A stretch of 64,000 nt of DNA, from positions 1,613,146 to 1,677,145 of the forward strand of contig NZ_JAAWWL010000001.1 of NCBI RefSeq assembly GCF_012272815.1. The letters run 5' to 3'. The DNA comes from Croceivirga thetidis. GTDB taxonomy: Bacteria; Bacteroidota; Bacteroidia; Flavobacteriales; Flavobacteriaceae. The notes under the pieces are model-generated. The model ran no database searches. It was not told the DNA's origin and was given only the letters and a program-made list of their open reading frames with translations. This document shows positions 25,659-29,084 of this stretch, one piece after another (the first letter of the stretch is position 1; every line of letters starts with the position of its first letter). The position numbers were made by a program, and so were the translations under genes.

Positions 25659-26993
25659 TTACCCTCCGGCGATATTCTTTTTGTTCATGTCTTGAACCGC
25701 TTTTTCAATTCCCCTTGGAGTCAGGGGAAACATGGGGACCAATTCTTTAATGGCTTGAATGGTATAGGTACCTGGCCAGTATTTTAAGGGTTCGGGGTTA
25801 AGCCAAACCGTTTTTTTGAATTTCTCTGTTATAGCTTTTATGGCAAGCATACTGTCATGGGTCAATTCGTACGGGGCCATAGCGGCGTCACCAATGATAA
25901 AGACCTTATAGTTTTTATTAAATTTCAAAAGCCTGTCAAGGTACATTGAAGTCATGCGCCTTTCATCAGACCATACCCGGTCATAAATGGTATTGTGGAA
26001 GTAAAACACCTCTAAATCGTGTGCAAATCGTGTTTTCATTTTACGGAATAGCCGTTGCACGGTGCGTACATAGGGTGACATGGAATACCCCCCATTGTCA
26101 ATCAAAACAATGATTTTAAAATCCTCGTTTTTTTCGTTTTTCAACTCGGGTATGAAAAGTCCACCTCTTTTGAGTCCAGTTTTAATTGTGGTTGGCACAT
26201 CCAACTTTTCTTGGGCACTTTCTTCAATTACCCCTTTTATCGAGGCCAAGGCCGCATCAACATTGTCATCGTTGAGTAATGAATCCCGGTCTACAGGAAA
26301 GTAGTTTTTATCACCGATTACCTTTCTGGCCATTCGGCCGCCACCCTGACCGCCAACGCGTATTCCATTTTTTGCTGCACCGCCATGTCCGTAGGGTGAG
26401 ATGCCTCCTGTGCCTATCCAATGGCTTCCACCACCGTGATTGGTGCGTTGTTGTTTACGCACCTGTTCCATGCGTTCCAGAAGTTCCTTTAAAGATAGAT
26501 CGGAGTAATCGGCCATTTTATCCAAATGCCGTTCCCTTGGATTTTGGTCATTCTGTTCCTCATCGGTATCCTCCAGATCAGGATTATCCTTATTCCAGAG
26601 TTCCAATCCATCGACTACTTGCTTGATGTCATAGGTAGTCAAATGAACTTGGTCAAGAAATGTGTTGACCAAATCCTCAGGGGTCAAATCCATATCCCTA
26701 TCCGCTTCTTCAACATAACCCGATTTCCATTTTTGAAAGGTTTCGGACCGTAGAATTGCATCTTCAAGAGATTGTCCCGGGGCAACGGGTATATTCAGGA
26801 AATACTCGTAAAAAGCTTTGATGTATGGCCCCTCTTCTTCAGGCTTCTTAACGATGATTCCTTTGAGTACGTTATGTAGGTCTCCCAATGTTTTTACCAA
26901 TCCTTTTTGCATGGCACGACGCAACACCAGTAATGTTCTTACATCGGTTTGTAAATCATGCTCTCGAAAAGATGCTGGTAAGGAACTAAGCAT
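25659..26993 (-). CDS. VWA domain protein (CoxE-like), MoxR partner
   Basis: I use the ATG at 26993, one base after the MoxR stop, rather than an upstream TTG inside moxR. The product is 444 residues: an N-terminal helical part, an acidic linker (about 155-180), a Gly-rich stretch with many GG pairs (about 205-240) and a C-terminal VWA domain (about 285-444). The metal site reads IDNGGYSMS instead of the usual DxSxS, so metal binding may be altered. MoxR-VWA pairs work as chaperone-like modules that mature or assemble other protein complexes; the client is not visible. No signal peptide, so cytoplasmic. Confidence 0.8.
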   Translation of the reverse strand: MLSSLPASFREHDLQTDVRTLLVLRRAMQKGLVKTLGDLHNVLKGIIVKKPEEEGPYIKAFYEYFLNIPVAPGQSLEDAILRSETFQKWKSGYVEEADRDMDLTPEDLVNTFLDQVHLTTYDIKQVVDGLELWNKDNPDLEDTDEEQNDQNPRERHLDKMADYSDLSLKELLERMEQVRKQQRTNHGGGSHWIGTGGISPYGHGGAAKNGIRVGGQGGGRMARKVIGDKNYFPVDRDSLLNDDNVDAALASIKGVIEESAQEKLDVPTTIKTGLKRGGLFIPELKNEKNEDFKIIVLIDNGGYSMSPYVRTVQRLFRKMKTRFAHDLEVFYFHNTIYDRVWSDERRMTSMYLDRLLKFNKNYKVFIIGDAAMAPYELTHDSMLAIKAITEKFKKTVWLNPEPLKYWPGTYTIQAIKELVPMFPLTPRGIEKAVQDMNKKNIAGG

Positions 26994-26994
26994 A

Positions 26995-27897
26995 TTAATT
27001 AAAGTATGGCCCCATATTTTGAAGGCCAATTTTACGATTTATCTGTTCCATATCGGTTTGGGTTTTTATTAACGCACCGATGCCTTCAAGGCCTTTGATT
27101 TTTTTAACGGCTTCTTTCGGGGAAGTATCTGACATATACTTTAACCAATTCAATATTTCACGTGTTGTAGGTGCGCGCTCCAATCCCAATTGTCGCAGAT
27201 TATAAAAGACCTCTAGAGCACTTTCAACAACAGTTGCATCGAGTTTAGGGTGATGTTTTTCAATAATCCGTTCCATGACATCCTTGTCAGGAAAATGAAT
27301 GAAATGGTAGATACAACGACCTTTGAATGCTGTTGGCAACTCCTGTTCCCGATTTGAGGTAATTACAATGGCAGGCATTTCTTCTTCAGAGATTTCAATA
27401 ACCTCACCAGATTCAGGCATTATAAATTTTCTATGGCTTAGGGCGTACAACAAATCGTTCGGAAACTCCCTTGGTGCCTTATCAATCTCATCAATTAATA
27501 GCACTGAATTTGGTTTACTATAAGCAATTGCTGCTGGGCCTTTAACGACATAATCGCCTAATTTTTCAGGGTTACGACCACCGGTTGACAACCGAGTTTC
27601 CAAGCCTTTTTCTTCTCGTTGGGCATTTAGGACTTCTATTTGTGAATCACGGAGGTATTTCACATGATCGAATCGAGCTACGAACTGCTCTACGTTACTT
27701 TTTGAACCAACAGGATAAACCTCCAAATCCAAACCAAGGTCATTTGCATAATGTATGGGTAATTCCGTTTTTCCGGTTCCAGGTTCTCCTTCAATGAGCA
27801 ATGGCATTCCTAAGGTTCTTGCCATATGAAATGCTTGTGCCAATTCTGGGTCACAGAGGTACTTTTCAGAACCCGCCCAGTAAGATGTCTCCGCCAT
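26995..27897 (-). CDS. MoxR-family AAA+ ATPase
   Basis: The 300-residue ATPase has Walker A GEPGTGKTE (about 37-45), Walker B VLLIDEIDKA (about 132-141), a sensor-1 region VITSNRE (near 175) and a sensor-2-type Arg region ERAPTTREI. It is the first gene of a leftward pair with the VWA gene (one base apart). It probably remodels a client with its VWA partner. The 399 bp upstream hold no other gene I can support. Confidence 0.88.
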   Translation of the reverse strand: MAETSYWAGSEKYLCDPELAQAFHMARTLGMPLLIEGEPGTGKTELPIHYANDLGLDLEVYPVGSKSNVEQFVARFDHVKYLRDSQIEVLNAQREEKGLETRLSTGGRNPEKLGDYVVKGPAAIAYSKPNSVLLIDEIDKAPREFPNDLLYALSHRKFIMPESGEVIEISEEEMPAIVITSNREQELPTAFKGRCIYHFIHFPDKDVMERIIEKHHPKLDATVVESALEVFYNLRQLGLERAPTTREILNWLKYMSDTSPKEAVKKIKGLEGIGALIKTQTDMEQINRKIGLQNMGPYFN

Positions 27898-28296
27898 GTT
27901 AAATCAAAAATTGCATTCTGTGAATTTAGCTTATTAATAAGTAACGAAGCAAGTAATGCGTTTCAGTGGGTAGTTTTTTGGGCCGAAAGTAATAATTCAG
28001 TCTTCTGATGCATTGGTTGAACAAGTGCCAAATTCGAATCCAAGGTTCTCTGATTTGTCGAAAATTGAGTTAAGTGGAAATTATTTTGAAGTCGTATTTC
28101 AACGAAACCAAATTTATTAAAGGGTATAATATATTTATATACAGCTATTTAAATTTTAAACTGATGATTCTGCTAGCTGCGTAGTCTTAAAATTTCCATA
28201 AAATAGTACCTTTTTATACATAGTACTGTAACAAAATGATTTTTGTGGCGTCTATATAGTGTAATCAATTAAAAAACATTTTTAAAAAATAGAACA
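27898..28296. other. AT-rich intergenic region without a recognisable gene
   Basis: About 400 bp between the MoxR start and the first small ORF. I see no ORF with supporting features, no tRNA and no known RNA family. It should hold the MoxR promoter (leftward) and the promoter of the small-ORF cluster (rightward). TTTTTG near 28241 is a possible -33 element, but no convincing TAnnTTTG box follows. A weak inverted repeat AGTAC...GTACT lies near 28206-28229. Confidence 0.4.
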
Positions 28297-28410
28297 ATGA
28301 AAGCATCAATCAACAGAACAGCAACAGAATCAAGAACGGGGCAATATTTCTCAACCCTAAGTGAGAGTAAAAGGTCGTTATGGGCGCAGTATCGAAACTA
28401 TAATCGTTAA
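28297..28410 (+). CDS. Small basic 37-residue protein, tandem copy A
   Basis: The ATG at 28297 opens a 37-codon frame ending in TAA. The product begins MKASINRTATES and ends WAQYRNYNR, with seven Lys/Arg and two acidic residues. A second copy at 28534-28647 encodes the same protein except residue 23 (Glu here, Asn there). By my count 14 other codons differ and all are synonymous, and the stop codons differ too. That pattern means selection on the protein, so I treat both as real genes. I know no family for it. No signal peptide or membrane segment is seen. The aromatic, Arg-rich C-terminal half could bind nucleic acid, but that is speculation. Confidence 0.72.
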   Translation: MKASINRTATESRTGQYFSTLSESKRSLWAQYRNYNR

Positions 28411-28533
28411 AAACGGCTTTAAACATTAATCCTAACAATTGGGACTGAAATAATTACAATTCAGAATATTTCGTTCCACAAAAAGTAAAAATCACAACAT
28501 CTTTGTATCATCAATCGAAAATCAAAAGAAATC

Positions 28534-28647
28534 ATGAAAGCATCAATCAATAGAACAGCAACAGAATCAAGAACTGGACAATATTTCTCTACACTTAGCA
28601 ATAGCAAAAGGTCGCTTTGGGCCCAGTATAGAAATTACAATCGCTAG
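28534..28647 (+). CDS. Small basic 37-residue protein, tandem copy B
   Basis: This second copy lies 123 bp after copy A and has the same 37-residue length with one replacement (Asn23). The flanking and intervening sequences are not alike, so the likeness stops at the coding borders, and the third-base differences rule out a recent duplication or assembly error. AAAAGAAATC before the ATG gives a modest ribosome site. Both copies lie upstream of the terminator at 28817-28842. The shared N-terminal half is nearly identical at DNA level and most silent changes lie in the second half, which may mark an RNA-level constraint or gene conversion in the first half. Confidence 0.72.
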   Translation: MKASINRTATESRTGQYFSTLSNSKRSLWAQYRNYNR

Positions 28648-28783: not shown

Positions 28784-28816
28784 GAACCATCATTATTTTG
28801 GTGGGTATCAAATCAA

Positions 28817-28842
28817 AAGCTTCTTGAATTTTCAAGGAGCTT
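28817..28842 (+). terminator. Intrinsic terminator of the small-ORF cluster
   Basis: AAGCTTCTTG and CAAGGAGCTT form a 10-bp stem (one G-T pair) with a 6-nt loop, followed by eight T (with the stem end). The hairpin is a diverged copy of the tRNA-fMet terminator at 28981-29006. Confidence 0.75.
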
Positions 28843-28847
28843 TTTTT

Positions 28848-28866
28848 TGTAGCTGAGACTGGATTC
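28848..28866 (-). repeat. Decayed copy of the tRNA-fMet 3' end
   Basis: These 19 bases match the last part of the tRNA gene and its flank (29010-29028) with three mismatches, right next to a copied terminator hairpin. Beyond this the match fades. A tRNA 3' end duplicated with its terminator is what integration and loss of a tRNA-targeting element can leave, or a local duplication. The piece cannot encode a tRNA. Confidence 0.5.
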
Positions 28867-28980
28867 ACGGCATAGTCGTGGGCCTAATGGGTGGCTTTAC
28901 AAATAAGCTCCAATTGCTTCACAATCCATCTTTTCTTTTGTTCTCAATTTTGAAGTACACTTCAGTTGTTTCCAAAAGAA

Positions 28981-29006
28981 AAGCTCCTTGATTTTTCAAG
29001 GAGCTT
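28981..29006 (-). terminator. Terminator of tRNA-fMet
   Basis: AAGCTCCTTG and CAAGGAGCTT form a perfect 10-bp stem with a 6-nt loop. On the minus strand it directly follows the tRNA 3' end and runs into a T-rich stretch (TTTTCTTTT). Confidence 0.75.
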
Positions 29007-29011
29007 CTTTG

Positions 29012-29084
<73 letters not shown>

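Follow-up and report, generated by a model that had tools for sequence, protein, structure and literature searches.

Small proteins induced under stress are a known kind of bacterial gene product, and LmrR is said to be encoded in an autoregulated operon of the PadR type. Among flavobacterial promoters, the closest published frame that we found in the accessible part of the literature is the SM6 class of F. psychrophilum, an ECF-type class with an ECF sigma/anti-sigma pair, and the genes listed for it in the part of the source available include that pair, an ABC-transporter ATPase and membrane proteins (PMC9723704). We describe here three tandem 37-codon genes within a 64,000-nucleotide stretch of Croceivirga thetidis DNA (the window), which we read, with somewhat better than even confidence, as a stress-protein array of an unmodelled family under the joint control of an ECF sigma factor and a PadR-type regulator. 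The family, its arrayed form and its double control all appear to be new; literature searches with partial coverage of journals and of bioRxiv returned no description of the family, and its peptide strings gave zero matches there. The strongest clue to function is the ECF-type promoter and the inverted repeat upstream of gene 1 (Table 1).

Table 1. Features of the array and its upstream region (positions in the window)
Feature	Positions	Strand	Basis
Inverted repeat AGTAC-N13-GTACTG beside the -35 element, candidate site of a PadR-type regulator	28205..28228	+	Match G000:C1:1641351-1641373
ECF-sigma-type promoter TGTAAC-N16-CGTC, 70 nt before gene 1	28227..28252	+	Only match to the pattern in the window, both strands
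Gene 1, type A, 37 aa	28297..28410	+	Translation, profile match
CATCTTTG, like the housekeeping sigma -7 box TAnnTTTG, before gene 2 (candidate)	28498..28505	+	Read in the sequence
Gene 2, type A, 37 aa	28534..28647	+	Translation, profile match
Gene 3, type B (divergent last member), 37 aa	28670..28783	+	Profile without window sequences, E 1.5e-12; relatives in the same place in the genus
Terminator-like hairpin with T run, after gene 3	28815..28851	+	1 found against 0.5 expected in shuffles; weak by itself

A preliminary description of this stretch proposed two real protein genes kept by purifying selection, and the sequence comparisons bear out the selection and correct the number, since a third member follows. 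Genes 1 and 2 each encode 37 residues that differ solely at position 23 (Glu or Asn), and their stop codons are TAA and TAG. Fifteen codons differ between them, 14 synonymously and one with the amino-acid change; the 17 base differences lie at third (14), first (3) and second (0) codon positions, and the Nei-Gojobori dN/dS is 0.030. The flanks are regarded as unalignable because only 23% of the 60 bases upstream and 33% of the 60 downstream are identical in ungapped comparison. Gene 1 has the described composition of seven Lys/Arg and two acidic residues, and gene 2 has one acidic residue. A profile built from 86 relatives, with the window sequences excluded, matches gene 1 at E 1.9e-19, gene 2 at E 1.3e-19 and the divergent gene 3 at the value given in Table 1, with no further match at E <= 1 among the 1833 frames of the window. 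Comparison with relatives, the check proposed in the preliminary description, gives dN/dS values of 0.02-0.09 for genes 1 and 2 against five named relatives, one saturated value aside, and of 0.13-0.41 for gene 3, synonymous divergence being near saturation in several of these pairs. In 28 within-array pairs of equal length and more than 60% identity (one identical, one saturated), the differences number 281, 86 and 85 at codon positions 3, 1 and 2. From these comparisons the array genes are, with near certainty, conserved coding genes. Small genes of such size may be omitted by gene callers with length limits, and what had been a blank intergenic stretch is now occupied by a conserved gene family for which a sigma factor, a regulator and a stress are all predicted.

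A tRNA-Met gene (anticodon CAT) lies on the minus strand at 29011-29084, and the preliminary description had named it as a neighbour; at 60 further array loci, a few of them cut short by contig ends, some 3 kb separate the array from the closest tRNA found, and the tRNA neighbour is incidental. Two near-identical CAAGGAGCTT hairpins occur in this region, one after the array (Table 1) and the other on the 3' side of the tRNA-Met gene (28979-29008). On the other side, a MoxR-like ATPase gene and its neighbour adjoin the array (25659-27897), and 20 other genomes, of which 10 belong to the same genus, contain no match to the ATPase at E <= 1e-60. Array neighbours vary generally: no transporter gene recurs across 65 arrays, and no gene family, such as a RiPP maturation enzyme, recurs next to all of them when neighbours are clustered and domain names assigned for a sample.

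That no family model was recognizable is borne out by the searches, which place the genes outside Pfam, NCBIfam, PHROGs and PADLOC. Neither Pfam nor NCBIfam gives a match to genes 1-3 at thresholds up to E 10, 89 members have nothing at E <= 0.01 in these two libraries, 34 members have nothing at E <= 0.01 in PHROGs or PADLOC, and the best PDB match has an E value of 0.14. A phage origin was considered and rejected, with no tblastn match at E <= 1 in a phage collection and none in PHROGs. The expected relatives in Bacteroidota do exist, and profile searches replace the local view of two genes with a multi-copy family distributed across Flavobacteriaceae: 43 of 299 sampled genomes of that family match at E <= 0.01, 36 of them at 1e-5. 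A phylum-wide sample of 345 genomes gave eight matches, of which four are strong and all from the same family as the window's genome, and four are partial (E 0.0017-0.009). Within the genus of the window, 4 of 11 genomes match at E <= 1e-5. Named contigs carrying the type-A motif (58 stretches) include Maribacter, Arenibacter, Pricia, Croceitalea, Croceivirga, Allomuricauda, Pelagihabitans, Kriegella, Ulvibacterium, Muriicola, Pseudozobellia and Aurantibacter.

Members are often arranged in tandem. The window and 60 loci chosen from the matches, with some single sites and short contigs excluded, contain 139 members in 65 arrays of one to five genes (22 single, 19 double, 18 triple, five quadruple and one quintuple). 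Several relatives in the genus keep the three-gene layout of the window, with spacings of about 240 nt from gene 1 to gene 2 and about 137 nt from gene 2 to gene 3. For arrays of at least two genes with an ECF-type promoter, the commonest orders are AAB, AAAB and AB, the last member being different, and AA, AAA, AAAA, BB, BBB and ABB are also present. Tandem copy number is suggested here as a means of setting the dose of a very small protein. Of the single-copy members, three (L069, L100 and, by clustering, L110) are part of a MacB/HlyD-type efflux operon or stand at its head, a placement that fits an envelope theme. Shortened versions of about 24 aa (MRTTIFNNSKRVRWSAHRNYAIKS), containing the C-terminal core only and again in tandem, are seen at L103 (5726-6290 and 11222-11433) and L111 (6242-6555). 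A second small-protein family of about 37-43 aa (e.g. MKTLYPHQTRPRVYFQLGFGWNTDKLYDIK...) often occupies the first position after the ECF-type promoter; it stands ahead of the first array gene at L077, L084, L087, L089, L091, L095, L099, L104, L116, L120 and L125, has a lone member behind an ECF-type site at L280, and is absent from the window. The one member of this second family that was checked has no Pfam match.

A nearly fixed block lies upstream of the arrays, reading TAAAATAGTACCTTTTTATACATAGTACTGTAACAAAA...CGTCTATATAG in the window, and contains the motif TGTAAC-N16-CGTC, which we take to be a form of ECF sigma promoter. It is called at 40 of the 65 arrays, with a spacer of 16 in 38 and of 17 in two, and upstream of 48 of 59 arrays in a named set assembled from one type-A pattern. 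Because the named set has some genomes in common with the first, the two counts are not independent, and the pooled figure of 88 of 124 arrays is for overlapping sets. The promoter is not called at 25 of 65 and 11 of 59 arrays respectively, and at least two of these negatives are near-misses, L103 having a mis-set start called upstream of the promoter and L133 a variant promoter. Judged from the promoter sequences, control of the arrays by an ECF-type sigma factor is highly probable.

Which sigma factor this might be is suggested by its own gene. The pattern TGTAACA-N15/16-CGTCT has 123 matches in 24 array genomes against 18 for the reversed pattern; 98 of these loci were read and 97 sites located, most array sites being excluded. 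One ECF sigma gene stands behind the same promoter at 20 sites, in 20 of the 24 array genomes and mostly 47-78 nt before the start. The orthologue in the window's own genome (G000:C2:908573-909076, 79% identity) has TGTAACA-N15-CGTCA in front, with CGTCA in place of CGTCT, and is followed by a 141-aa protein and then by two that resemble the DUF4252 protein of L235; an ABC transporter elsewhere in this genome has the same promoter. Further sites precede genes for a roughly 112-aa protein whose N-terminus is signal-like (13), ABC-transporter ATPases (5), DUF4870 (4) and DUF2807 (4) proteins, MacB-like permeases (3), TolC-like proteins (2), M16 peptidases (2), Rce1-like proteins (2) and one Pmp3 protein. 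These groups are sequence clusters, from each of which one or two representatives were compared with Pfam. The sites of the protein of about 112 aa are L240, L269, L270, L285, L288, L296, L308, L310, L313, L318, L320, L323 and L336, and the one member checked has no Pfam match. At L289, L311, L331 and L332 no frame of at least 35 aa starts within 260 nt of the promoter site. We read the sigma factor as a putatively autoregulated one of the envelope-stress type, the stress being suggested by the co-promoted and neighbouring genes. An envelope-stress role for the arrays is likely, the theme resting on the names of the co-promoted genes.

Other sigma factors could read promoters of the TGTAAC-N16-CGTC type, and the window's own genome has 15 further, weaker matches to the array-linked sigma factor. 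Sigma genes near seven arrays (cluster c10) were considered as the cognate sigma factor and set aside, the promoter form being missing in four of the seven. The other three, at L097, L105 and L118, have TGTAAC-N17-CGTC, with a spacer that exceeds by one base the N16 seen in 38 of 40 array promoters. In each case the gene encodes a different ECF sigma factor (194-197 aa), is close to a single array gene and has the promoter before itself, a second and similar sigma circuit, and such a sigma factor is a possible second reader of these promoters. Two other sites in the window's own genome were judged to be chance occurrences, an exact GTACTGTAACA inside a TolC-like gene (G000:C1:1149563) and a site with no gene read downstream (G000:C3:175913).

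The inverted repeat beside the -35 element is closely tied to the arrays rather than to the promoter class as a whole. It lies within 420 nt upstream of 85 of the 88 arrays with an ECF-type promoter as against 4 of the 36 without, and AGTAC-N13-GTACT occurs at five of the 97 sigma-promoter sites, all five being arrays, and at none of the 92 others. Searched alone in 25 genomes as GTACY-N9-ATAGTACTG, the repeat has 34 matches in 21 genomes against three for the reversed pattern; 33 of these are at arrays (two being palindromic doubles), and the remaining one precedes a DUF4870-PadR-PspC-like operon in G225 by 61 nt. The PadR of this operon was present in all 30 genomes tried, including three without array matches (G164, G631 and G001), and a similar repeat is found upstream of the operon in 29 of the 30 as against none of 30 reversed stretches. 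This repeat has 0-3 mismatches of 25 in 27 genomes and four in two, as scored with a consensus drawn from some of the same loci. PadR, PspC and DUF4870 are confirmed by Pfam in the window's own genome, where the PadR gene is at G000:C2:1084468-1084788. PadR is probably the protein that would act at the predicted array operator. Because PadR is present in genomes without arrays, it does not exist for the arrays; and because the repeat also precedes the PadR operon, the array promoters seem to have adopted an older PadR site.

There may be a second, basal input. The gap of 123 nt before gene 2 contains CATCTTTG, which resembles the housekeeping sigma -7 box given as TAnnTTTG in the available part of the F. 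psychrophilum study (PMC9723704). A similar nnATTTGTA or CTTTG element is seen in many of 23 gaps of 100-320 nt within arrays, and nine of 10 inspected arrays without an ECF-type site begin behind such a housekeeping-like element. Gene 2 thus seems to have a housekeeping promoter of its own, as far as the motif can tell, in which case nearly the same protein would be supplied both basally and on induction.

From the shared promoter, the genes of the regulon and the repeat, we infer that the arrays encode envelope-stress small proteins under the sigma factor and, as predicted, probably under PadR. Gene 1 would be transcribed by the ECF sigma factor of the lineage, whose own gene is behind the same promoter, and a dimeric regulator, most likely the PadR of the DUF4870-PadR-PspC operon, would act at the repeat beside the -35 element. 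What the product does is less firmly indicated. The protein has by reading no signal or membrane segment, its net charge has a median of +6 (range +1 to +10, 130 members), and [KR][KR]..W is present in 125 of 130 members; in a weak AlphaFold model (mean pLDDT 72, pTM 0.31) a helix at residues 25-32 is the sole confident element. The product, whose charge is about +6, may act stoichiometrically in the cytosol, its C-terminal helix K-R-x-x-W-x-x-x-R-N-Y/F binding an anionic partner (RNA or the inner membrane face) when the envelope is under stress; the dose would rise with tandem copies, and types A and B would be made together. We favour such a binder because of the stress control, the tandem dosage and the paired last type, although bulk action of a cationic, aromatic C-terminal helix on its anionic partner is a tentative reading that we hold at rather less than even confidence, the helix itself being modelled.

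Several other readings of the same features have to be weighed. The peptides may be RNA- or ribosome-directed regulators whose Arg- and Trp-bearing helix binds a specific RNA and alters transcription or translation under stress. The median charge and the near-universal [KR][KR]..W motif would suit such a role, as would a short basic helix as the only confidently modelled element, and the core SKRAQWAQYRN may resemble the end of the arginine-rich motif of lambda N; however, PDB and Pfam searches reveal no relation to a known RNA-binding family, and we regard this reading as possible and somewhat doubtful. A feedback role, in which the peptides bind PadR, the sigma factor or the partner protein of the sigma factor and so tune the stress response, would be consistent with the prediction that both regulators act on the arrays at once, but PadR is also present where arrays are not and the copy number seems excessive for a signal, so that such a role is unlikely.

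Two further alternatives fare worse against the sequence data. Cationic, short peptides with one conserved Trp, encoded in tandem, are reminiscent of leaderless, bacteriocin-like antimicrobials with an immunity transporter, and the window's own genome does have an ABC transporter behind the same promoter, although it is located elsewhere. No transporter recurs beside the 65 arrays, however, the three singletons in MacB/HlyD-type operons notwithstanding, and the sequences are polar and show strong conservation instead of variability, which makes an antimicrobial function very improbable. The short units, often about 150 nt apart, and the strong promoter could also describe repeated small RNAs whose frames are by-products and yield no protein, but the excess of third-position differences in the within-array pairs and dN/dS values far below 1 leave this with almost no probability; non-coding RNA is ruled out on the codon positions, and the only Rfam family above its gathering score is tRNA.

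Returning to stress peptides that bind an anionic partner, a fuller and distinctly speculative version, which we hold with low confidence, is that the arrays constitute a lineage-specific, dose-amplified peptide arm of the flavobacterial envelope-stress response, in which RNA- or membrane-binding 37-mers would be made in bulk when the ECF sigma factor is active and PadR is released, the distinct last member serving as a partner. If true, this peptide arm would be a new class of cytosolic envelope-stress effector.

The promoters invite comparison with the SM6 class, which is likewise flavobacterial and ECF-type, its CGT box at -10 being conserved; in the part of that source available SM6 is described as low-nutrient induced and linked to type IX secretion, and small-protein arrays, PadR and PspC are not mentioned there, and the likeness does not imply that its sigma factor is the one acting at the arrays (PMC9723704). 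The sites described here outline an ECF envelope-stress regulon across Maribacter-like marine flavobacteria. As a matter of kind, the array products are like known small stress-induced proteins in their very small size and their predicted envelope-stress regulator, and unlike them in having by reading no membrane segment, in matching no sequence of the libraries searched and in being encoded as tandem near-identical copies with a different last member. The regulatory arrangement is like that of LmrR-type operons in that a PadR gene has an inverted repeat upstream of its own operon, and unlike it in that the repeat is also found in the promoters of unlinked small-protein arrays, where it is predicted to serve as an operator.
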